This document shows, piece after piece, positions 24,828 to 55,533 of a stretch of DNA of 64,000 bases. The notes beneath the pieces are model-generated. The model was not told where the DNA came from. It made no database searches and saw only the letters and a program-made list of their open reading frames with translations. The DNA is from Alphaproteobacteria bacterium (GTDB taxonomy: Bacteria; Pseudomonadota; Alphaproteobacteria; UBA8366; Aestuariispiraceae). The position numbers and the translations under genes are program-made. Numbering within the stretch: the first letter of the stretch is position 1; every line of letters begins with the position of its first letter. The stretch spans positions 372,001 through 436,000 of the forward strand of contig JANSXE010000001.1 of NCBI GenBank assembly GCA_024743195.1. The letters run 5' to 3'.

Positions 24828-26771
24828 TCACTCGTCCTGCGCCTCCACGAGCCGCAGTACATTCGTCATCGCCGCGTAGTCCTCTTGCGTCGCGTCCGCC
24901 TCTTCGTTGGCTTGCTGGGCGATCGCGCGGGCCGGCGCCGCGGCTCCCGCGACCATGCGGACCGTCCGCGCGGCCGGCGGCGGCGGGGGCTCGATCTCGG
25001 GCTGCATTCGCACCCACTCCTCGATCGACATCTCCTGCTCGAGCTCGGCCGCGCGCCGCGCGCTGCGAACAAACTCCCGCCGCTTGCGGTTGTGATCGCG
25101 GGCCGCATCGACGCTGTCGAAGCCGACGGCCTCCAAGACCTCGGCGAACCCGAGATAGGCGCCGTCCCGCCGATACAGGTGCACACCGGCGTGCAAATTG
25201 TCGGGGTCGAACCGGACGGTCAGCTTCTCGCCGACATGGTTCGAGAGAAGCTTCGACCAGAAGCGGTTTCCAAGGAGATGGACGGCGCCGTCCGGCTGGC
25301 GGGCGGTGACGGCCTCGGCCGCCAGCATCGCCATGCGCAGTTGCGCCTCGCCAGCCTGCTTGACGATCGCCGTCTCGTAGCTCGCCTCGAAGGCTTCGTC
25401 GAAGCTGCGCACGCCCCCGCACACCTTCGTGCGTCTTTGCGGGCGCCGGTTGTGGGCGATGATGCCGCGCTCGAAGGTTTGGAGGAACGCGTCGAAATCG
25501 ACAGCTTTGGGCGTGTAGTCGGGCTTGTTGGCCGGGCTGTTGCCGGTGTAGCAACCGGCGAAGGCCGGATGCATCGAGATGCGTTCGCACACATCGCGGA
25601 ACGCCCGCTCGATCGGCTTCGACTGGCCGGAATAGGGCGTCGTCCAGTGGACTTCGACGCCGAGCTGGGTGAGGACGCCCGACATCTCTTCCGGGCTGAC
25701 CTTGAACCGGAAGCGCGTCGGCTGGCCGCCGGTGATCAACTTCGCGGCAAAGCCGCGGCCGTTGTCGAGATAGGCGAGCTCCGGGATTCCGTAATTCTTG
25801 AAGACGTCCAGGAAGGCGAGCCGAACGCCCGTCGCGGTCTCCGCCGCGTCGATGCGCCAGGAGAGAATCTTGCCGCTGAAGAGATCCTGGATCGCCAGAA
25901 CCACGGGCCGGATCACCGACCCGTCCGGCATCTTCACCCAGACGTCCATCTTGTGGCCGTCGGCGTTGACCGCCTGCATCGCCGTGAAGTGCGAGCGGTC
26001 CCGCTCCTGCGCGGGATAGCGCCGCTTGAGCGCTTCCGGCCCCTCGCGCAGCAGCACCCGGACGGGCGCCGGAATTTCGGTCTCGATGCGCCGCATCAGG
26101 GTGCGCAGCGACGGGATCGCCCACCCCTCGACAGCGGCGGTCTCGACGAGGCGCTCGTAGCAGGCCTCGGCCGTCACGGGCTCGAGGCGCAGGTAATCGG
26201 CCTTGAAGGCGGCCCACGCCCGCGGATGGCACGCCGCGGTCTTCGTGCGGCCTTGGTGCTGCGGCGCGAGGTACGGCAGCCAGTCCGCGCGATCGGCGGC
26301 GGCGACCAAGTCGAACCATGTCCAGATCGTTCGGGCGCCCTTCGCGACGCGCCGGGCCACGGCGGCCACCGCGGCGTTCTTCTGCAACCCGCCGCGTTCG
26401 AGCGCGATAACGGACTCGAGCGCCGCCAGCCGGTCGCGCGCGGTCTCCTTCCGGCTTTCCGGAAGCCCCTCGAACCACCGCCACAATTCGCTTACTGGGC
26501 GATCCGGCTTTGCGGAGGCCGGCTCGGCCTTCACCCGGGCCGCGCGGGCGTCGGAGACGAGCTTGAGCTGCGCGCGCTGTGGCAGGAGACTGTAGTGGTA
26601 TTCCCGGCCGCCGCCGTTGCCGCGGCGCGCCCGGCAAAGCGGCTCGCCGGCCGCGGTGAGACGCTTATCCCACCCGGCCTTCTTGGCCGCGGCGTTCACG
26701 CCGCGCTTCGTGGCGGGCAAGTCGGGCAGAGCCAGCGCGGCCAGTTCGGCGGCGGTGAACCACTCCTTCAT
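24828..26771 (-). CDS. Phage transposase A (MuA-like DDE recombinase)
   Basis: 647 aa. The N-terminal Ibeta/Igamma-like DNA-binding part begins KEWFTAAELAALALPDLPATKRGV. The rve core has the DDE triad at D271 (NADGH), D336 (LDNGRGF) and E388 (KPIERAF), almost the same numbering as Mu A (269/336/392). The C-terminal part (about 570-647) is the region that contacts MuB in Mu. It catalyses end cleavage and strand transfer. Confidence 0.95.
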   Translation of the reverse strand: MKEWFTAAELAALALPDLPATKRGVNAAAKKAGWDKRLTAAGEPLCRARRGNGGGREYHYSLLPQRAQLKLVSDARAARVKAEPASAKPDRPVSELWRWFEGLPESRKETARDRLAALESVIALERGGLQKNAAVAAVARRVAKGARTIWTWFDLVAAADRADWLPYLAPQHQGRTKTAACHPRAWAAFKADYLRLEPVTAEACYERLVETAAVEGWAIPSLRTLMRRIETEIPAPVRVLLREGPEALKRRYPAQERDRSHFTAMQAVNADGHKMDVWVKMPDGSVIRPVVLAIQDLFSGKILSWRIDAAETATGVRLAFLDVFKNYGIPELAYLDNGRGFAAKLITGGQPTRFRFKVSPEEMSGVLTQLGVEVHWTTPYSGQSKPIERAFRDVCERISMHPAFAGCYTGNSPANKPDYTPKAVDFDAFLQTFERGIIAHNRRPQRRTKVCGGVRSFDEAFEASYETAIVKQAGEAQLRMAMLAAEAVTARQPDGAVHLLGNRFWSKLLSNHVGEKLTVRFDPDNLHAGVHLYRRDGAYLGFAEVLEAVGFDSVDAARDHNRKRREFVRSARRAAELEQEMSIEEWVRMQPEIEPPPPPAARTVRMVAGAAAPARAIAQQANEEADATQEDYAAMTNVLRLVEAQDE

Positions 26772-27253: not shown

Positions 27254-28110
27254 CAGGCCGCCTCCTCCTCTTCCGGCTCGTCGATCCAGCAGAGCGCCTG
27301 GCCGGCGCCATTGCCGAAGCCGGTCTCCACCAGCTCCTCGACGAAGGCGCGCTGGTCGCGCTTGGAGAGCCGCGCGAACGCATCGAGCGCGCGCTGCAGC
27401 GCGCTGGTCTCTGGGGCGGCGGCGTCGGCGGCGGGTGCGCCGGAGAGCCGTTTGTGGGCGCCGCCGACGGTCTTGGCCTCACCGGCGCGGATCAGACCCG
27501 CGAGGCGGCGCTGGATCTCCGGCCCGAACTTGGAAAGCCGCTCCAGCTCCTTCTGATTGTCCTCGATCGCCGAACCGCGCAGCGCATCGGCCGCCGCGCC
27601 GTCCAGCCGCTCGCCGATTTGAACCGCCTTCTTGAGCGTCGCCTCGGTCCAGCCGGTGCGCCCGGCCGCTGCAGCTGACCAAGAGGGAATCTTTCCCTCT
27701 TGAAACTCAGCGCTGCGGCGGTCGCCGCCATGCGCCGCCTCCGGGTTGAGCGCCAAATGAACGGCCTTCAGCTCGGAGACGAACTGCGCGCGCTCCAACT
27801 TGCTGAGCTCGTTTCGCGCCAGATTCTCCAGAAGTTCATCGCGGCGGTACGTCAGATCGTCGCCGGTAAGCACCACGGCCGGGATCGTCTCCCAGCCGAG
27901 GCTTGTGCAGGCGGTCAGGCGATGCAGGCCCGATACGAGCCGGTAGGGCGTATCGCCGTCCTGCCTGCCTACTTCGATCGGTTGGCGCAGGCCGCGCTCG
28001 GCGATGTCGGCGCTCAGCGCCTCGACCTTCACCGCGGTGGCTGGGCGCTTCCTGTCGCCGATTGCGATGTCAGCGATCGCAATCTCCTCGACGGCGAGAC
28101 GGCTGTTCAT
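27253..28110 (-). CDS. ParB/Srx-fold protein
   Basis: 285 aa. The N-terminal 100 residues have the ParB N-domain motifs (IERGLRQPIEV-like GLRQPIEVGRQ, YRLVSGLHRLTACTSLGW, LLENLARNELSKLERA). After HGGDRRS comes a KorB/ParB-like HTH zone and a helical tail. ParB-like proteins in this place between Ner and A are known in RcapMu-type phages; a role in regulation or end binding is inferred. Confidence 0.85.
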   Translation of the reverse strand: MNSRLAVEEIAIADIAIGDRKRPATAVKVEALSADIAERGLRQPIEVGRQDGDTPYRLVSGLHRLTACTSLGWETIPAVVLTGDDLTYRRDELLENLARNELSKLERAQFVSELKAVHLALNPEAAHGGDRRSAEFQEGKIPSWSAAAAGRTGWTEATLKKAVQIGERLDGAAADALRGSAIEDNQKELERLSKFGPEIQRRLAGLIRAGEAKTVGGAHKRLSGAPAADAAAPETSALQRALDAFARLSKRDQRAFVEELVETGFGNGAGQALCWIDEPEEEEAA

Positions 28111-28391
28111 GCGGCCCCCGCTTTTTGACGGTGCGCGCCGAGGGCCGAGTTGCTACGCTTTGAACGCATCGCGAGGCGGCCGCCGTCGGGCCCGTACCAC
28201 TCCGGCCAGAGCTGGTGGCGGGTTGCGCCGAGGAAATCGGCGATGGCGTCATTGCCCCGCGGAACGGGTTGGCGCAGGGCCTTGCGCACCGCGCTGTCGG
28301 AGAGGTCCTTCGCCCGCCGCGCGAGACCGGAAAGCGTCATTCCGCGCTTTCGGATGCGCGCCTTGATGTCTTCGGGGTGCGTGTTTCGCAT
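28107..28391 (-). CDS. Ner-like negative regulator of transposition
   Basis: 94 aa. MRNTHPEDIKARIRKRGMTLSGLARRAKDLSDSAVRKAL ... RQPVPRGNDAIADFLGATRHQLWPEWY parallels Mu Ner (HTH ending in xxxxIWPSRY). Divergent from the repressor gene, first gene of the early transposition operon. A hairpin (28408-28429) lies in its leader. Confidence 0.85.
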   Translation of the reverse strand: MRNTHPEDIKARIRKRGMTLSGLARRAKDLSDSAVRKALRQPVPRGNDAIADFLGATRHQLWPEWYGPDGGRLAMRSKRSNSALGAHRQKAGAA

Positions 28392-28407
28392 GGTTTCTTT
28401 CGTCGTG

Positions 28408-28429
28408 ACCCGGTCTGGCAGGACCGGGT
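28408..28429 (+). other. Hairpin in the Ner leader
   Basis: ACCCGGTC (28408-28415), a 6-nt loop, GACCGGGT (28422-28429), followed on the plus strand by TTTGTT. It resembles a plus-strand terminator, yet no plus-strand gene lies upstream; on the minus strand it is a leader hairpin just before the Ner start. Confidence 0.4.
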
Positions 28430-28444
28430 TTTGTTGGGGGTGAG

Positions 28445-28635
28445 TATTCCCGAATGGGAATAACGCTAACTGGAAATCCGGCTCGCATCAACCGGAAAAA
28501 CGGTTCCCAGATGCCAAAGCTAATCGAATTTCCGGTTCAGCCAAAAGTCACAGGAAGTCAATGAGTTATGGAGAACCGGGAAAAGCCAAGCGATTTGGGA
28601 AGCGAGGTTCCCACTTTCAGGCAGGAAGTGGGAAC
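28445..28635. promoter_or_regulatory. Immunity operator region (repeated TTCCC/GGGAA dyads)
   Basis: TATTCCC-GAAT-GGGAATA is a perfect dyad at 28445-28462. A second perfect dyad, GTTCCCACTT (28607-28616) and AAGTGGGAAC (28626-28635), lies inside the repressor coding start. Further TTCCC or GGGAA half-sites occur at about 28504, 28578 and 28597, and AACCGG/CCGGTT motifs at 28490, 28501, 28535 and 28573. Such clusters fit cooperative repressor and Ner operators between divergent promoters. Confidence 0.6.
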
Positions 28636-29029
28636 GCGGCTGCGCGAGATAGAAAACCGGTTCAAAAACCGGGAATCCGCCGCCAAGTGCGCCGGCGTCG
28701 CCAAGTCGACGCTGCAGAGTTGGATCGAAGGCAGGGCCGACCCCTCCTTCGAGGCTGTTTCCCGCCTTTCGCGCGAAACCGGGGTGAGCATTGACTGGAT
28801 CGCCTTCGGCGCAGAAGAGCCAACCAGTGCCGGGGCTGCGCCGGACGACGAGACGCTGCGCGCCGTCATGGATGCGGTGGCCTTTGAGGTGGAGGGCCGC
28901 GGGCTTCACCTGCGGCCGACCCAGTTCGCGCGGCTCTGCCAGGTCGTCTACCGCTTGATCACCGAATCGGGCGCGAGCAATCGCGCCGCGGCGATCAAGG
29001 CGGCGCTTGAGCTGGTGGAGCTCAACTAG
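28568..29029 (+). CDS. XRE-family c-type repressor
   Basis: 153 aa, ATG 28568 preceded by AGGAAG. A helix-turn-helix (ESAAKCAGVAKSTLQSWIEGRADPSFEAVSRLSRETGV) is followed by SIDWIAFGAEEP and a helical C-terminal domain (LRAVMDAVAFEVEGRGLHL). It diverges from Ner, the usual place of the lysogeny repressor. Its architecture also matches the chromosomal XRE protein at 54446-54889, suggesting paralogy. Confidence 0.85.
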   Translation: MENREKPSDLGSEVPTFRQEVGTRLREIENRFKNRESAAKCAGVAKSTLQSWIEGRADPSFEAVSRLSRETGVSIDWIAFGAEEPTSAGAAPDDETLRAVMDAVAFEVEGRGLHLRPTQFARLCQVVYRLITESGASNRAAAIKAALELVELN

Positions 29030-29123
29030 TTCCCGTCTCGCTTGTCACGGCCACCCGCGATGGTAAGGTAACTGCTCGCTTAGGCTGCGGTTTGCGGTTG
29101 CGACCCGAATTGAGGATATCGCT

Positions 29124-29381
29124 ATGTCCCTGGAATTCTTGCATTCTGAGGTGCAGCGCATCCTCAACGGCGGCCGGCCGATGGACCGTTCCGATCGCAT
29201 GGCCTGGATCAAGGACACCATCGCCGCTCTTGAGATCGGGCCGATCGTCGCCGGCTTCGCGCTCAGCCACTTCGGCTCTGCCGACATCGAGACGCTCGAC
29301 GACGCGCAACTGGCCCGCCTGCAGCGCTTCGTGAAGAATTGCGCGGACGTCGAAATCGAATGCCGGGCGCGGCCGCAATGA
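29124..29381 (+). CDS. Small helical protein of cargo module
   Basis: 85 aa, MSLEFLHSEVQRILNGG, ending FVKNCADVEIECRARPQ. The part IGPIVAGFALSHFGSADIETLDDAQLARLQRF matches VRPLVDAYVRESFGAESMEQ... of the chromosomal gene at 54162-54389. It lies between repressor and PAS-like gene, with an ATGA overlap to the latter. Function unknown. Confidence 0.75.
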   Translation: MSLEFLHSEVQRILNGGRPMDRSDRMAWIKDTIAALEIGPIVAGFALSHFGSADIETLDDAQLARLQRFVKNCADVEIECRARPQ

Positions 29382-29857
29382 GCGCCTTCATCGAGCCGAT
29401 CGACGCGGCCTATTTCGCGCCGAATGGCCGCTGCGCCGCGGGCATCGCTTGGTTTCGCAGCGCCGACGGGTTCATGAACGCAGGAGACGACGCGGTTCTC
29501 TCGCGTCTGATGGCGGAGAGCCACGTCTCCGTGATCCGTGATCCCGAGATCCCGCCCGTCCTCTACATGGTCGGCGCGCAGAGCCCGGCCGCCGCGACCT
29601 TCGGCGAGGAGTGGGCGGCCGACGCCACGGGCGCCGCCGGCGTGCCGGACGAAGAGGCGGAGCGTCTCTGCAACGCGGCCTATTACGACGCCGCGGCGCG
29701 CGAGCGGCCGGTCGCTCACGTCTGCCGCGCGTCGTTCCGGGTGTCGCCGGCGCGCAAGGTCGACCTCTTCTACACGCGACTCCTGTTGCCGCTTCGCCGG
29801 CGCGGCCGGCCGCCGCTCATTCTGTGTTGCGCTGATCTAATGCGACACGATAGCTGA
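29378..29857 (+). CDS. PAS-like sensor-type protein of cargo module
   Basis: 159 aa from ATG 29378. Features AGVPDEEAERLCNAAYYDAA, RPVAHVCRASFRV and FYTRLLLPLRRRG align with AGVPDSAYDERLREDYF, LPLAQTVRTSLDV and EYCRYIFPVTIAG of the chromosomal PAS-like protein at 53627-54169. The pattern resembles the PAS_5-type single domain seen in Rhodospirillales. Its 3' end overlaps the convergent GNAT-like gene by 41 bp. Confidence 0.7.
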   Translation: MSAFIEPIDAAYFAPNGRCAAGIAWFRSADGFMNAGDDAVLSRLMAESHVSVIRDPEIPPVLYMVGAQSPAAATFGEEWAADATGAAGVPDEEAERLCNAAYYDAAARERPVAHVCRASFRVSPARKVDLFYTRLLLPLRRRGRPPLILCCADLMRHDS

Positions 29858-30509
29858 GATCGGCGCGCGAGGCGGCGACGAACCAATCCTTCTCGCTGAT
29901 CGAGGCCGGCTTGTCGCTGTAGTGGCTGCCGTAGGGCTCGGCCCGCCAATAGCCGATCTTGACGTGATAGCCGCGCAAGACCTTCTCCTCGGCCACGAAT
30001 CCCCAGATCCAATCCGGGTCCCACCGCAGATAGGCGATCAGGTGCGCGAGCACCGCGAAGCGCTGCGCCAGGCGCTTTCCGCGCGCCGCCTCGGCGACGA
30101 ACAGATCGCCGTGATACACGACCGAGCCGGTCACCTGATGGACCATCGGCGCGTGGCCGATCAGCTCGGCCTGGCTGTGGGCGCAGTAGTAGCGGTGGTA
30201 CTGCCGGTCGAGATGGGCGGCGAGCGGGACGCTGATCCGCTCGCGACGCATGGCCTGGACGGCGAGCGTCGCGCCGTCCGCGCCGCGCGCCTCGAGCCAG
30301 AGAAGGTCGGCCGGGTCGATGTCGTTGATCGCGGGATCGAGCGGCGGGGAAGGCGCGGCCTTGCCGGAAAGCGCCTGCAACGCGGCGGCGAAGGCCGTGA
30401 TGTCGTCGGCCTGGCGGATCAGGACGCCGTCGGCTGCCAGCGCGGCGTCCAGGCGCACGGCGGCGCGCATGGTCGCCAGTTCGTTGCGGGGCGGGCGGTG
30501 GAACTGCAT
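29817..30509 (-). CDS. GNAT-like acyltransferase of cargo module
   Basis: 230 aa from ATG 30509. The stretch VVYHGDLFVAEAARGKRLAQRFAVLAHLIAYLRWDPDWIWGFVAEE looks like a GNAT motif A (V....RGxxL) followed by helix and strand. The same order occurs in the chromosomal protein at 53053-53694 (YHGDTWVSPAMRGARLGG ... RWQPDFVYAFFEK). Substrate unknown. Transcribed toward the PAS-like gene. Confidence 0.7.
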   Translation of the reverse strand: MQFHRPPRNELATMRAAVRLDAALAADGVLIRQADDITAFAAALQALSGKAAPSPPLDPAINDIDPADLLWLEARGADGATLAVQAMRRERISVPLAAHLDRQYHRYYCAHSQAELIGHAPMVHQVTGSVVYHGDLFVAEAARGKRLAQRFAVLAHLIAYLRWDPDWIWGFVAEEKVLRGYHVKIGYWRAEPYGSHYSDKPASISEKDWFVAASRADLSYRVALDQRNTE

Positions 30510-30710: not shown

Positions 30711-30770
30711 CTATATCCCGCCCCGTCCCGCCATATCCCGCCTCACTGCAGGTTCATGTGTCCTCTAACA
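30711..30770 (-). other. Predicted left end of the prophage with transposase-binding repeats
   Basis: Two ATATCCCGCC copies (about 30713 and 30733, 20 bp apart), a related GTCCCGCC between them, and a terminal sequence reading TGTTAGAGGACACATG from 30770 on the minus strand. Mu-type ends begin with TG and hold spaced transposase sites. The remaining noncoding DNA (30510-30710) shows nothing else I can name. Confidence 0.5.
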
Positions 30771-30832: not shown

Positions 30833-32866
30833 TCACTCCTTCTTCACGATGCCCGTCACGGCGGCGAGGAACAGGCCGGTCAGCAGGCTGCCGAGGAGGA
30901 TCTGCACATAGTGCCAGATCAGCACCAGCCAGCCCCAGGGCGCGGCGGCGTTGACGGTCCAATGCTTCTCCGGCCGCATCTCCAGGAGCGGGATGGCGAG
31001 GTCGAAGGAGTAGGTGAGCGGGATGAAGCCCGGATAGTCCTTGGGCAGGCAGGCCGCCTCCGCCGGGCTGCGCCGCGTCAGCGCATTGCTTTCCGGCGGA
31101 TGGCGGCCGGCGCAGTCGTAAAACCCCGCGCCCCACCCCTGCCCCTTGAGGGTCGCGTCGGGGGGGATCGCCTCGAAGATCGTCGCCTGCGCCGGCGCCA
31201 TCAGACGCGCGTCCCAGGCCTGCTGGAAGATCAGCATGCCCAGCAGGATCAGCCCAACCATCGCCCACACCGCCCGCATCGGCCGATAGCCGTAGCCGAT
31301 GACGCCGTCCAACAGCCAGGCGTCGAATGTCCGGCGAAACCATTCGGCGACCCGGTCCGGGAAGTAGCCGTTGAGGCGGTGGTCGCGTTGCGGCTCCGGG
31401 ATGGCCATGACGAAAGCCCGATGCTCTTCCGCCCGTTGCTTGCGGCGCATGGCGATGTAGACCGCCTTCGCGCAGTCCTCATGCCCCCCTTCGCGCAGCC
31501 GCGCCGCCACCTGCTGATAGGCGTGCGGCGCCCAGTACTGGGGTTCTTGCGCGTCCAGCCAGGCGATCCAGCCGTCCCGACGGCCGCGGGTGTAGGCCGG
31601 CAAGGATCCGATGCGGATGTCGGGGGCGACGACCGTGAGGTTCCTCGGCCAGCCTTCCGCCGGGGTGTCGAGATACAGGGTGTCGATCCGCGCGTCGGCG
31701 AGGTCGCACACTCCCTCGCAGGCGCCCGTGAGCCCCTTCAGCCAGGCGCGATCCACGCTCGCCTTCTCCAGAGTAAGCGCCGCACCGCCCGGCCGCCGAA
31801 AGGTCGCGCCGGGCACGTCGAAGGATCCGCCGAGGCGCGCGCCGGCGAACTGCACCGTCCCCGTCGCGTCGAGCCCTTTCAGGAACGCGCCTTGCGCGGC
31901 GCTCAGGCCCTGGCCCCGGAACGCCAAACCGTCCCGGCCGGCGTCCAGAACCGCCTTGGTCATCGAAAGCGGGCCGCCGATCTCGGCGGTGGCGAGATCG
32001 ACCGTCCCGGTCGCGCGCAGGCCGCGCAGGAAGGCGCCTTGCGCGGCGCTCAGGCCCTGGCCCCGGAACGCCAGGCCGTTCGGACCGGCGTCCAGAATCG
32101 CCTCGTTCATCGAAAGTTGATAGCCGATCTCGGCGGCGTTGAGGTCAACCGTCCCGGTCGCGCGCAGGCCGTCCAGGAAGGCGCCTTGCGCGGCGCTCAG
32201 GCCCTGGCCGTTGAAGGCCTCACCGTCCGGACCGGCGTCCAGAACCGCCTCGTTCATCGAAAGCTGCCCGCCAATCTCGGCGGCGTTGAGGTCAACCGTC
32301 CCGGTCGCGCGCAGGCCGTCCAGGAAGGCGCCTTGCGCGGCGTGCAGGCCCTGGCCCTGGAACGCCAGGCCGTCCGGACCGGCGTCCAGAACCGCCTTGT
32401 TCATGACAAGCTGGCCGCCGATGCGGGCGCTCATCAGATCGAGGGGCGCGGACGCGTGCATGGCGTTGAGGACAAGATTCGTGTCGATGCGGAGGTGCGA
32501 CGCGGACAGCGCGGCGTCGACGCGGCTGTCCGACAGGGCGAGCGCCGGGGCGCGCAGGCGGTCGAGCGCGACCCGGTCGGGGAAGCGGCAGGCGATCAGC
32601 GCGAGGGGAAAGCCCAGATCGCCGTCCGAAAGGTCGAGCGCGCCGCGGATGCGGGCGCCGAGGAGAACAAGGCCCTTGCGGCCGGGCGGGGGGCCGGCGA
32701 AGCGGCCGTCGATCAGGGCCTCCAGCACCTCGGCGCGGATGTCGTGGGCGCGGTCGTCCGCATCCGGCGGGGCCTCGCCGGTGAAGCCGGGCACGGCGAA
32801 GGGCTCGCCGGCGCGGGCGGCGGCGAGGAAGGCCTGTTCGAGGGGGGTGAGATCGTCCTCCCGCAT
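30833..32866 (-). CDS. Repeat-rich (pentapeptide-like beta-helix) membrane protein
   Basis: 677 aa from MREDDLTPLEQAFL. The middle holds four near-identical 49-aa repeats (GGQLSMNEAVLDAGPDG.., GLSAAQGAFLDGLRATGT) predicted to stack as a beta-helix related to pentapeptide proteins. Near the C-terminus are hydrophobic segments AVWAMVGLILLGMLIFQ and WLVLIWHYVQILLGSLLTGLF. Similar proteins are sometimes labelled membrane-associated oxidoreductase without evidence. Function unknown. Confidence 0.8.
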   Translation of the reverse strand: MREDDLTPLEQAFLAAARAGEPFAVPGFTGEAPPDADDRAHDIRAEVLEALIDGRFAGPPPGRKGLVLLGARIRGALDLSDGDLGFPLALIACRFPDRVALDRLRAPALALSDSRVDAALSASHLRIDTNLVLNAMHASAPLDLMSARIGGQLVMNKAVLDAGPDGLAFQGQGLHAAQGAFLDGLRATGTVDLNAAEIGGQLSMNEAVLDAGPDGEAFNGQGLSAAQGAFLDGLRATGTVDLNAAEIGYQLSMNEAILDAGPNGLAFRGQGLSAAQGAFLRGLRATGTVDLATAEIGGPLSMTKAVLDAGRDGLAFRGQGLSAAQGAFLKGLDATGTVQFAGARLGGSFDVPGATFRRPGGAALTLEKASVDRAWLKGLTGACEGVCDLADARIDTLYLDTPAEGWPRNLTVVAPDIRIGSLPAYTRGRRDGWIAWLDAQEPQYWAPHAYQQVAARLREGGHEDCAKAVYIAMRRKQRAEEHRAFVMAIPEPQRDHRLNGYFPDRVAEWFRRTFDAWLLDGVIGYGYRPMRAVWAMVGLILLGMLIFQQAWDARLMAPAQATIFEAIPPDATLKGQGWGAGFYDCAGRHPPESNALTRRSPAEAACLPKDYPGFIPLTYSFDLAIPLLEMRPEKHWTVNAAAPWGWLVLIWHYVQILLGSLLTGLFLAAVTGIVKKE
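31831..32418 (-). repeat. Tandem 147-bp repeat, four units, within the beta-helix gene
   Basis: The phrase GCTCAGGCCC (or GTGCAGGCCC) recurs at 31901, 32048, 32195 and 32342, exactly 147 bp apart, equal to 49 codons. Units are highly similar, implying recent duplication or gene conversion. Confidence 0.9.
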
Positions 32867-53052: not shown

Positions 53053-53694
53053 GTGAATCCGATGCACCTATCGTCCCTGTTGCAGGCGCTCACGGCCCAG
53101 GTCCGCGCGAAGGGCATGGCCTTGGAACTGCTTGAGGATATGGAAGCGCTCTACCGGGCAGAACCCCAGTTGGACGGCAAAGCCCTGTCGCCGCTGTTCA
53201 GAGGGGAGCTTTTCGACATGCAGGACGCCTTCTGGATCCGCGGCGTGCGGTTGAGCGACGGCAAGCTCGTCCATGTCCAGGCCGCCAAGCTGGAGGATAC
53301 GGGCCGACGCAGCCTGGCGGAGCTTCTGCCCCGCCAATTGAACCGGTGCTACGACGCCGGCCTGCAGCGGGCGGACTGTCCCGCGCTGGATCTGATCAGA
53401 GGCCGCCTCGCCTACCACGGCGACACCTGGGTCAGCCCCGCAATGCGGGGCGCCCGGCTCGGCGGGACGCTTACGCAGATCGGATTGCTCGCGGCCTATG
53501 CGCGTTGGCAGCCGGACTTCGTCTACGCCTTCTTCGAGAAGGGGCCGGCCTATTCCGGGTTCGGCGCCCGGTCCTGGTACACGAAGATGGAGCGGATGGG
53601 CCGACGCTGGAGCCGCTGGATCGAGGCTACCGAGTTCCTGGCCTATATGACGCGCGAGGAGCTGGACCGGCTAGTCGCTTTGGAGGCTCGATGA
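53053..53694 (+). CDS. GNAT-like acyltransferase (chromosomal module copy)
   Basis: 213 aa with GTG start behind GGAGGGA. YHGDTWVSPAMRGARLGGTLTQIGLLAAYARWQPDFVYAFFEK parallels the prophage cargo protein at 29817-30509. The central RGxxL stretch is GNAT motif A-like. Its 3' end overlaps the convergent PAS-like gene by 68 bp. Substrate unknown. Confidence 0.7.
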   Translation: MNPMHLSSLLQALTAQVRAKGMALELLEDMEALYRAEPQLDGKALSPLFRGELFDMQDAFWIRGVRLSDGKLVHVQAAKLEDTGRRSLAELLPRQLNRCYDAGLQRADCPALDLIRGRLAYHGDTWVSPAMRGARLGGTLTQIGLLAAYARWQPDFVYAFFEKGPAYSGFGARSWYTKMERMGRRWSRWIEATEFLAYMTREELDRLVALEAR

Positions 53695-54169
53695 AGCGGG
53701 AGCAGATATTGACCGCAACGGCCCCGGCGATGGTTACCGGAAAGATGTAGCGGCAATACTCGACGAAGAAAGGAGCGCCCCAGACGTCGAGCGACGTCCG
53801 GACGGTCTGCGCCAGCGGTAGGCCCGTCTCCAGAACCCGGAAATAGTCTTCGCGAAGCCGCTCGTCATAGGCGGAGTCGGGAACGCCCGCCCGCCCGCTC
53901 GCCGAGCGCGCGAAAGCGCGTCCGTACAGGGCGGCGGGCGGGGTCGCCGCGCCGCAGTGGAGATAGCGATAGACCCCGTCGCCCACCTCGTGGATCTGGA
54001 AATAGGGGCTCAGCGCGCCGAGTTCGGCGTCGTCGTTCCCGAAGACCCCGTCCGTCAGCAGGTGCCAGTCCAACACCCGCCGCATCACGCGGTCGCTGCG
54101 GAGCGCGGCGAAGCGGATGGGGCGAATGTCCGGCTCGCTCGCCATGGCGTCGTGGATCGCGTCACTCAT
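53627..54169 (-). CDS. PAS-like domain protein (chromosomal module copy)
   Basis: 180 aa. IRFAALRSDRVMRRVLDWHLLTDGVFG, YFQIHEVGDGVYRYLHCG, AGVPDSAYDERLREDYFRVLETGLPLAQ and YCRYIFPVTIAGAV form one PAS_5-like domain that may bind a ligand. The start overlaps the stop of the small helical gene by 8 bp. Homologous in pattern to the prophage gene at 29378-29857. Confidence 0.75.
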   Translation of the reverse strand: MSDAIHDAMASEPDIRPIRFAALRSDRVMRRVLDWHLLTDGVFGNDDAELGALSPYFQIHEVGDGVYRYLHCGAATPPAALYGRAFARSASGRAGVPDSAYDERLREDYFRVLETGLPLAQTVRTSLDVWGAPFFVEYCRYIFPVTIAGAVAVNICSRFIEPPKRLAGPAPRASYRPGTR

Positions 54170-54389
54170 GGCGCCGCTTCACCATGTCCATGAACGCCGC
54201 GATGAAGTCGAGAAGCTCCTTCAACTCGGCGGCGCTCAATTGCTCCATCGACTCCGCGCCGAAAGACTCCCGAACATAGGCGTCGACCAGCGGGCGAACC
54301 CCCATCTCCCGCGAGAGCTTCTCCACGCGGGTCAGGCTGGCGTTGTGCAGCAATTCGGTCAGTTCGGATCGCAGCGCTTCGTCGATCAT
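54162..54389 (-). CDS. Small helical protein (chromosomal module copy)
   Basis: 75 aa from ATG 54389 (a GTG at 54395 is an alternative). VRPLVDAYVRESFGAESMEQLSAAELKELLDF matches the prophage cargo protein at 29124-29381 in the positions P, FG, E-L, L and F. Entirely helical; might bind the PAS-like or XRE partner. Confidence 0.7.
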   Translation of the reverse strand: MIDEALRSELTELLHNASLTRVEKLSREMGVRPLVDAYVRESFGAESMEQLSAAELKELLDFIAAFMDMVKRRHE

Positions 54390-54445
54390 GCTCACATCGC
54401 TCGCGCCGGGCGCCGGCGGCCGCGGCGCCCATCCCGGGGTCGACC

Positions 54446-54889
54446 TCAGAAACTCTCGACCAAGTCGCGGGTGAAACGCAAGCGATTGTCGGTCGACGGC
54501 TGAACCAGGGCGTACTGATAGAGCAGAGGAACCGCACGCGCCTTGGTGTCCGGCGGCAGATCCAGATCGAGCGCGCGCAGCGTCGCCTCCAGGGTCTCCA
54601 CGACATCCACCAGCAGCCGCACGTCCAGGGCAAGCGCCGGCGCGCCGGCCTCCTCGCCCTGCAGCATCGCCCCCTCGCCATAGGCCAGCCAGTCGAGACG
54701 CACGCCGGCTGCGCGCGCCAGCGTCGCAAGCGGCAGAAACGGCGGCTTGGTCTCCGCGCGACAGTAGCGATGCACCATATCCTCGGACACGCCCATCACC
54801 TGGGCGGCCTGACGCTTGGTGCCGATCTGGGCGCAGGCTCGGGACAGGCGCTCGGCCAGCGCCTCAAGGTCCGCAGCGGTTGCCCTCAT
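54446..54889 (-). CDS. XRE-family regulator (chromosomal module copy)
   Basis: 147 aa from MRATAADLEALAERL. HTH (KRQAAQVMGVSEDMVHRYCRAET), then GVRLDWLAYGEGAM, and a helical C-terminal domain, the same layout as the prophage repressor at 28568-29029 (GVSIDWIAFGAEEP). It precedes the small helical gene on the same strand. It may regulate the module through the dyad at 54976-54996. Confidence 0.75.
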   Translation of the reverse strand: MRATAADLEALAERLSRACAQIGTKRQAAQVMGVSEDMVHRYCRAETKPPFLPLATLARAAGVRLDWLAYGEGAMLQGEEAGAPALALDVRLLVDVVETLEATLRALDLDLPPDTKARAVPLLYQYALVQPSTDNRLRFTRDLVESF

Positions 54890-54996: not shown

Positions 54997-55161
54997 TCTC
55001 TACCAACCTCAAAGGGAAAATCTGGGTAAATTCGGGCTAGCGGACGAATTCGACGGACATTTTATGCAAATATCCTAGTGTCGAAATCTCGAACCGTCCG
55101 CATCAGGGGGCGAACGAAGCGCGGACCGACGGGCCGCGCGGAAACTGGAGGAGCAGCAGTC

Positions 55162-55533
55162 GTGTCTAGTGGGAAACATCCGGTCGACGTCGCGGTGGGC
55201 GCTCGGGTCCGGGAATTGCGAATCCGCGCCGGCATGTCGCAAACCAAGCTCGGCGAAGCGCTGGGCGTCAGCTTTCAGCAAATTCAGAAGTACGAGAACG
55301 GCGCCAACCGGATGGGCGCGTCCCGTCTCGTGCAGGTCGCGTCCGCGCTGAATGTGCCGCTCGCCCAACTCTTCACCGGGGTAGACGTCGAATCGCAGAG
55401 CGGCGCGGAGCCGGCGCTCGACACCGAGGCGTCGAAGGTCGCCCGGGACTGGGCGTCCATTCCCAATCAGACGATGCGCGACTCGTTGCGCCAGGTGGTT
55501 CGCAGCATGGCGGAGAAGACGGGCGGCCGCTGA
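55162..55533 (+). CDS. XRE-family transcriptional regulator
   Basis: 123 aa from the GTG at 55162, which has a strong GGAGGAG; an upstream ATG-like start at 55078 lacks one. VGARVRELRIRAGMSQTKLGEALGVSFQQIQKYENGANRMGASRLVQVASAL is a classic HTH_3 common in Alphaproteobacteria. Not closely related to the module XRE proteins. Divergent from them. Confidence 0.88.
   Translation: MSSGKHPVDVAVGARVRELRIRAGMSQTKLGEALGVSFQQIQKYENGANRMGASRLVQVASALNVPLAQLFTGVDVESQSGAEPALDTEASKVARDWASIPNQTMRDSLRQVVRSMAEKTGGR

Follow-up and report, generated by a model that had tools for sequence, protein, structure and literature searches.

A GNAT/PAS gene pair conserved in Alphaproteobacteria and placed beside phage repressors: a candidate ligand-maker and sensor module

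Introduction

In systems of the LuxI/LuxR type, an enzyme of the GNAT fold is encoded next to a sensor that is PAS-like and linked to a DNA-binding domain, the two genes frequently being convergent. A comparable arrangement was found in the 64,000-nucleotide stretch of DNA analysed here (hereafter, the window) from an Alphaproteobacteria bacterium of the family Aestuariispiraceae (GenBank assembly GCA_024743195.1, contig JANSXE010000001.1, positions 372,001–436,000). A four-gene module at the left end of a Mu-like prophage (copy A, 28568–30509) and a second, chromosomal set of homologous genes (copy B, 53053–54889) each encode an XRE-family regulator, a small protein, a PAS-fold protein and a GNAT-fold acyltransferase-like protein. 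Unlike in LuxI/LuxR, the DNA-binding half of the module is of XRE or LysR type. VqmA of phage VP882 is likewise a PAS-domain phage receptor sensing an autoinducer; unlike the module, it is not known to have a companion synthase, and it carries its own helix-turn-helix (HTH) in the same protein. Arbitrium uses a peptide signal and another receptor fold, whereas the sensor of the module models as PAS.

With arbitrium (AimR-AimP-AimX, named in the review PMC13389391), the module would nevertheless share the logic of a phage-encoded signal and receptor that set lysogeny. A close functional parallel is offered by the Aeromonas phages outlined in PMC10432266, in which an XRE-LuxR-smORF operon links an autoinducer to lysis in an SOS-independent way, LuxR binding the C4-HSL natively made by Aeromonads; there, too, a phage XRE shares an operon with a ligand-sensing partner, but in the present module sensing would fall to a PAS protein next to a GNAT, and the XRE appears to be the actual repressor. 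PMC6456758 mentions a phage contig that encodes a receptor of the acyl-homoserine lactone (AHL) type, with a LuxI-type synthase upstream; a phage encoding both a receptor and a small-molecule synthase is what we propose here, but the families predicted for that contig are LuxI and LuxR.

The N-acyl amino acid synthase FeeM also shares the GNAT fold, but its profile matched only one of 61 GNATs (E 0.039). Membership of the LuxI/LuxR families was rejected, as the profile tests failed on both sides: Autoind_synth (the LuxI profile, PF00765) matched none of the 61 GNATs and Autoind_bind (PF03472, the LuxR sensor) none of 53 PAS domains at E ≤ 0.05. The rhizobial conjugation regulators RcgA/RcgR, considered for the GNAT relatives found on rhizobial plasmids, were also discarded; compared by description only, they are a membrane protein and an alpha/beta hydrolase, not GNAT and PAS folds, in the accounts given by PMC9601222 and PMC13055273. 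No description of the GNAT/PAS pair was found in the open-licence literature, which omits most subscription papers; the initial annotation had remarked that it knew of no described system with this gene set. Judged from its sequences, the pair is best described as a putative synthase-receptor type of regulation built from families that fail the LuxI and LuxR profiles.

Results

Conservation of the GNAT/PAS pair

Comparison of the loci indicates that the conserved core of the module is the GNAT/PAS pair, the XRE and the small gene being lineage-specific partners. In copy A the XRE, small and PAS genes run rightward and the GNAT gene leftward, and copy B is its mirror image (Table 1). The GNAT and PAS genes converge and overlap at their 3' ends by 41 bp in copy A and 68 bp in copy B, and the small and PAS genes overlap by 4 nt and 8 nt, respectively. 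All eight open reading frames (ORFs) lie where the initial annotation had placed them, and both tail-to-tail overlaps that it claimed were borne out by the ORF coordinates. The observation is thereby confirmed, and it proved more general than first described. Rare co-occurrence, which the initial annotation had named as a refuting result, was not what was seen for GNAT and PAS; XRE, small, PAS and GNAT genes were retrieved together just five times, in copy A, in copy B, in another genus of the family (G004, L098), in a prophage of genome G012 (L101) and in Labrenzia phage vB_LagS-V1 (L094). The small-gene profile matched nine loci among those scanned, which had been chosen for GNAT; in the four of these without the full set, the contig ends (L100), the XRE is not adjacent (L095, L104) or a LysR-like gene is present instead (L099).

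Within 14 genomes of the window's family, GNAT (E ≤ 1e-3) and PAS (E ≤ 3e-22) counts were identical genome by genome (4, 2, 1, 1, 4, 4, 1, 2, 1 and none in five genomes, 20 in total for either gene), an equality partly built in, since the PAS profile (A8) includes the 17 adjacent family PAS and the GNAT profile (A1) most family GNATs. Seventeen of the 20 GNATs adjoin a PAS gene, with up to four copies per genome. A further PAS profile (A10) drew on 21 of A8's 52 rows, with PAS_5-like rows and all rows from the window's family dropped. At E ≤ 1e-3 it gave 17 hits, i.e., 13 of the 20 family PAS, with the three unlinked PAS among them (2e-22 to 2e-21), and four in G001, so that the GNAT/PAS link stands and strict equality of counts becomes less firm. 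The PAS relatives of G001, a genome devoid of GNAT, were located at C1:841778–842608, C9:54752–55558 and C12:124236–124613, two of them carrying two PAS matches per long frame.

Association was also evident in family f26 (198 genomes), where 32 genomes carry GNAT (E ≤ 1e-15) and 20 a strong PAS (E ≤ 1e-20); the two occur together in 18 genomes, and PAS alone in two (Fisher p 5e-15). A stricter GNAT cut of 1e-50, set post hoc, left 18 genomes with both, two with GNAT only (one at a contig end), two with PAS only and 176 with neither (p 2e-21). Across wider samples, GNAT at E ≤ 1e-15 was detected in 32 of 385 genomes of the class, and GNAT was present in 10 of 398 genomes of the phylum, all ten belonging to the same class. 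When all loci were pooled, 82 distinct GNAT genes were obtained (GNAT domains shorter than 120 aa omitted), 64 of which have a PAS gene within 700 nt, convergent in 55 cases, with overlapping ends in 45 and on the same strand in nine; the profiles used for this count (A7, A8) were partly trained on the counted loci. Moreover, GNAT and PAS distances were correlated: over 61 pairs (of 64, after omitting those with PAS below 110 aa or GNAT below 150 aa) the Mantel r was 0.82, a value reached in none of 2000 permutations, and inside the window's family it was 0.86 over 17 pairs, reached in none of 5000. We conclude with high confidence that GNAT and PAS work together.

Variants of the arrangement were observed as well. 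Two tandem PAS proteins stand beside GNAT in other families of the order (L033, L035, L039, L040), and a tandem pair of GNATs of the family, with one or no recognised PAS partner, occurs at L124 (1318–3345) and L087 (433–2412). In G012, a GNAT with unlinked PAS adjoins genes resembling, by eye, a histidine kinase/response regulator pair (L102, 3805–5718).

DNA-binding partners of the PAS domain

Beyond the separate XRE gene, PAS is found in a single chain with DNA-binding domains. A LysR-type HTH_1 domain (E 6e-12) precedes PAS within one protein in L061, and LysR-PAS proteins, recognised with a profile from five fusions, stand beside a same-strand GNAT in 18 of 30 f26 loci. XRE-PAS single chains convergent with GNAT were identified in L181 (HTH_3, 5e-8) and L183 (Phage_CI_repr, 2e-5), both reaching Pfam cut-offs; the XRE half of other fusion-type proteins is weak (L184, L156) or gave no HTH match (L182, L157), and the PAS half matched its profile at E 6e-12 to 8e-3. 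The search with the XRE-PAS fusion profile returned no match. The strongest indication that PAS serves to control a DNA-binding protein comes from these fusions with LysR and XRE. Longer PAS proteins with another N-terminal region were also encountered (e.g., L067, L091, L097); L067 and L091 were scanned against Pfam and gave no match.

In two of the seven rhizobial plasmid loci opened, out of 22 records, a LuxR gene encoding an Autoind_bind domain lies downstream of the GNAT relative, at distances of 1.1 and 2.2 kb. This proximity is a hint only, as other plasmid loci hold insertion sequence elements, ATP-grasp or C45 peptidase genes.

The pair in phages

Judged from gene content and order, several unrelated phages use a predicted GNAT/PAS pair beside their repressor. 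Labrenzia phage vB_LagS-V1, the one match among 50,697 phage records, has the arrangement CI-small-PAS/GNAT at its repressor, the CI being named as such in the record and the PAS matching its profile at E 6e-10 (single test). The four-gene module of G012 lies in a tailed-phage prophage, with genes for major head, protease, portal, terminase and helicase proteins nearby. Among IMG/VR contigs, L091 carries an XRE-like gene (HTH_19 only, at 0.051) with a long PAS protein, L090 has a GNAT with no recognised PAS, and the fusion type is present in eight, whose GNATs are 98–100% (five) or 48–52% (three) identical to that of L127, the partner having been inspected in four of the eight.

In the ten loci L149–L158 the partner gene always converges on GNAT and overlaps it by 26 to 137 bp; these are not ten independent phages, L149 being 99% like the Labrenzia phage, L150 the same contig as L091, and L151–L155 near copies. 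The weakest PAS matches are those of L157 (E 8e-3) and L158 (5e-3), whose partner aligns at 51% with the L156 partner. A Mu transposase was detected in two of the six viral records searched, namely the contigs of L157 (E 2e-139) and L158 (1e-18). Viral scans with P0004 and with P0007 (the copy B PAS) retrieved no relatives, and the single match of P0007 in the phage records (30% coverage, E 0.05) was disregarded.

Homology and predicted folds

The initial annotation had named unrelatedness of the paired proteins as what would overturn it; instead, all four pairs of copies A and B match by BLASTP (single-comparison E-values: XRE 1e-10, small 3e-5, PAS 2e-8, GNAT 4e-21). Among the module proteins the XREs alone reach a Pfam cut-off. 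The copy A XRE matched Phage_CI_repr (E 2.6e-8) and HTH_3 (1.1e-7), as well as a PHROG transcriptional repressor (4.6e-11), and XRE protein P0012 matched HTH_3 at 9.5e-15; both P0012 and P0001 (copy A) were scored as Cro/CI helix-turn-helix proteins. No Pfam match to the S24 self-cleavage domain, the SOS-responsive type, was found in P0001, P0005, P0012 or the G012 XRE. For the other copy A proteins, Acetyltransf_7 was reached at E 0.039 by the GNAT, and the small and PAS proteins gave one Pfam match each at 0.04; the copy B small, PAS and GNAT proteins gave none at E ≤ 1. None of the module proteins reached an NCBIfam cut-off and, in PHROGs, the XREs matched repressors and the remaining proteins had no match below E 0.09. 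PAS_5 (PF07310) was matched by neither window PAS at E ≤ 1, and by 5 of 53 relatives at E ≤ 0.05. Likewise, the GNAT profile found no match among PDB sequences at E ≤ 1.

The copy B PAS and GNAT, the two proteins modelled with AlphaFold2 (input alignments of 52 and 58 sequences), gave a mean predicted local distance difference test score of 91.8 and 95.2, respectively. The GNAT model was closest to the GNAT enzyme 3gy9 (Z 12.0, root-mean-square deviation [rmsd] 2.8, 139 aligned residues), tied with SpeG 6cy6 (Z 11.9, rmsd 3.1, 149 aligned); 765 of 999 chains matched at Z ≥ 8, the top Foldseek E was 1.3e-6, and FeeM ranked ninth in the Foldseek list. The PAS model resembled photoactive yellow protein (2d02, Z 10.1, rmsd 2.9, 114 aligned), tied with the host VqmA with autoinducer (6ugl, Z 9.4, rmsd 3.3, 109 aligned), and phage VqmA (7dwm, Z 9.0, rmsd 3.4, 110 aligned), its top Foldseek E being only 0.018. 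The two proteins are thus confidently modelled as PAS and GNAT folds, a likeness that reveals no function. At the start of the coenzyme A (CoA) pyrophosphate loop, where RG is a GNAT motif, 52 of 58 aligned GNATs have the R and 44 the G, the window copies reading RGKRLA and RGARLG.

Genomic setting of the two copies

To the left of copy A, the 28 prophage proteins scanned include a transposase, a DNA transposition protein, portal, major head, head protease and tape measure proteins. The best pair of termini, G000:C15:360996 and 402770 (window 30770), shows TGT...ACA ends, a duplicated GAGGG and, just inside both ends (by eye), the common sequence GACACATnAnCCTGCAGT. The terminal-repeat scan is weak alone, as 16-base matches of at least 10 with a 5-base duplication occurred 1.35 times per control window; the placing relies on TGT/ACA at both ends (0 of 60 control windows), on the position about 40 bp after a ubiX-like gene, and on the internal repeat in both ends. 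With these termini all four copy A genes lie inside the prophage, at its left end, as first annotated, between the transposition genes and the terminus, and the GNAT start is about 260 bp from the prophage end. The module sits where Mu has its repressor region. The gap separating the XRE from the first early gene holds inverted repeats (16 nt, 81% complementary) that are probable repressor operators. Immediately past the terminus, at 30833–32866, a 677-aa ORF with near-identical repeat blocks was noted, by eye a pentapeptide-type repeat protein.

Table 1. Genes of the two modules and associated features (window positions, unless a locus is named).
Feature	Position	Strand	Remarks
Copy A XRE/CI-like repressor	28568–29029	+	153 aa; no S24 protease domain detected
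Copy A small protein	29124–29381	+	85 aa, helical by eye; homologue of 54162–54395
Copy A PAS-fold sensor protein	29378–29857	+	159 aa; homologue of 53627–54169, which has a modelled PAS fold
Copy A GNAT-fold acyltransferase-like protein	29817–30509	-	230 aa; homologue of 53053–53694, which has a modelled GNAT fold
Copy B (chromosomal) GNAT	53053–53694	+	213 aa
Copy B PAS	53627–54169	-	180 aa
Copy B small protein	54162–54395	-	77 aa
Copy B XRE regulator	54446–54889	-	147 aa; HTH_3 E 4.8e-5, just above cut-off
Mu-type transposase of prophage	24828–26771	-	phrog_310 E 2.9e-153
Presumed Ner-like first gene of phage early operon	28107–28391	-	ORF; position beside transposition genes
Divergent intergenic region	28392–28567		176 bp; operator-like inverted repeats at 28490–28537
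Left terminus of Mu-like prophage	30755–30770		followed by GAGGG duplication
LuxR with Autoind_bind downstream of GNAT relative, rhizobial plasmids	L092 6872–7711; L148 6956–7741		

Copy B is surrounded by ordinary chromosomal genes; another XRE-family regulator gene just past it (55078–55533) lies, as far as tested, outside the module. The copy B GNAT is 46% identical to that of another genus of the family, where the four-gene module is also present, flanked by pheS-like and pheT-like genes. Two further GNAT copies were found in the same genome, each with a convergent PAS: at C15:315447 the small gene is present and no XRE is adjacent, and at C20:309794 the PAS protein is longer. The genome thus harbours a four-copy family and not a single duplication. 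In a tree of 80 GNATs (80 of 82 kept, those below 170 aa omitted), copy A grouped with the Labrenzia phage, both IMG/VR GNATs, L127 and four metagenomic GNATs, with a support (91/89) below the tool's mark for firm support and with long branches in this phage-containing group; the tree software flagged an unusual composition for copy A and long branches for L094, L091, L127 and L086. The copy B GNAT grouped with genes of G004, another genus of the family (support 100/98). A recent duplication of the module into the prophage was rejected on the 30% identity of the GNATs and their different positions in the tree. By these comparisons, copy B appears to be neither a recent duplicate nor an evident source of the phage copy.

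Discussion

We give about an even chance to the reading that GNAT makes or modifies the ligand of PAS and that a PAS-coupled repressor is thereby switched, the locus representing a module of a ligand-maker and a ligand-sensing repressor. According to this reading, GNAT would acylate or otherwise make a small molecule, the PAS domain would bind it, and the phage PAS protein, with the small protein, would act on the CI-like XRE repressor, setting lysogeny or lysis; the molecule could either leave the cell (communication) or stay inside (metabolic check). Since GNAT is paired with a PAS that is fused or row-linked to varied DNA-binding proteins, a ligand maker with its sensor is the simplest account. 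We count in its favour the co-occurrence, the adjacency, the Mantel correlation, the fusions, the phage settings, the likeness to VqmA and FeeM, and the LuxR neighbours on plasmids. In addition, classical SOS cleavage is not expected of XREs without a recognised S24 domain, and for such a repressor ligand control through the PAS partner would be the switch. The initial annotation had suggested that the module may couple a sensed ligand and an acyltransferase to lysogeny: the coupling to a phage repressor is supported by the four-gene modules of L094 and L101 and by the XRE-PAS fusions of viral contigs, while ligand synthesis by GNAT and the output on lysogeny stay conjectural. A bolder version, possible although we regard it with some doubt, is that a phage-made GNAT product accumulates across lysogens and infected cells and directs the choice between lysis and lysogeny through a PAS receptor linked to, or fused with, the CI-like repressor, and that hosts run the same family with other DNA-binding domains.

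Several observations pull the other way. Three of the 20 family GNATs, from three genomes of one genus, have no adjacent PAS, each genome having one PAS elsewhere. The PAS cut for the family was picked after the list was seen, and the next hits (1.4e-19 and 1.3e-16) fall in G001 and G006, both without GNAT; the independent profile A10 misses 7 of the 20 family PAS, mostly of the short type, and its four other hits fall in GNAT-less G001. Fourteen f26 genomes have GNAT and no strong PAS, and 18 of the 82 GNATs have no recognised PAS nearby, although L094 and L127 among them were later found to have one. Five of the seven rhizobial plasmid loci show no LuxR. The RG of the CoA loop is missing, by eye, from the GNATs of the Labrenzia phage, L060 and L156, some of which belong to the phage-rich clade, so that these may not be ordinary CoA enzymes. 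Finally, PAS folds bind many things, and regulator-enzyme neighbours fit ordinary detoxification too.

The last point leads to a different account, which we consider rather unlikely, namely that the regulator coupled to PAS responds to some compound of the host or the environment and governs a GNAT that modifies or detoxifies this same compound, the phage copy being cargo near the repressor. LysR-type regulators commonly adjoin the enzymes they control, and the detoxification reading is indeed strongest for the LysR form, with its co-directional GNAT in those 18 of 30 f26 loci; SpeG-type polyamine acetyltransferases are, besides, prominent among the GNAT fold matches. In phages, however, the partner role falls to the CI-like repressor itself or to a fused XRE-PAS protein, and cargo would not be expected to retain this link in unrelated phages; nor does a convergent gene order allow a shared promoter. 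An unlikely alternative would dispense with the small ligand altogether, GNAT acetylating the PAS, the small or the XRE protein and so tuning the repressor. The GNAT model does resemble the protein N-acetyltransferases NatD and NatC besides small-molecule enzymes, and the pairing fits an enzyme and its substrate, also considering that three pairs are unlinked. Nevertheless, a conserved lysine column was not found at 80% in five XREs or nine small proteins, nor at 60% in 52 PAS domains, a test which leaves N-terminal acetylation unaffected.

We regard as very improbable that the locus is a toxin-antitoxin or anti-repressor unit with GNAT as toxin or antirepressor and the PAS/small pair as antidote. 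GNAT toxins are known, and 7byy, titled a bacterial toxin, is among the fold matches (Z 11.0, rmsd 3.7, 158 aligned). Their systems, though, carry a co-directional ribbon-helix-helix antitoxin, whereas the partner here is PAS, the order is mostly convergent and some pairs are unlinked. Moreover, in PADLOC, which covers known defence genes, GNAT, PAS and small proteins had no match at E ≤ 0.01, the XREs matching weakly (top 0.0013).

The GNAT/PAS pair is apparently an undescribed enzyme-sensor pair of Alphaproteobacteria, whose enzyme has weak Pfam matches only and which is used repeatedly beside phage repressors. Labrenzia phage vB_LagS-V1 is a sequenced phage with a named host strain, making the idea directly testable. 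If it is true that GNAT makes the ligand, the pair would constitute a novel class of signalling system, and phages would encode a small-molecule equivalent of arbitrium.

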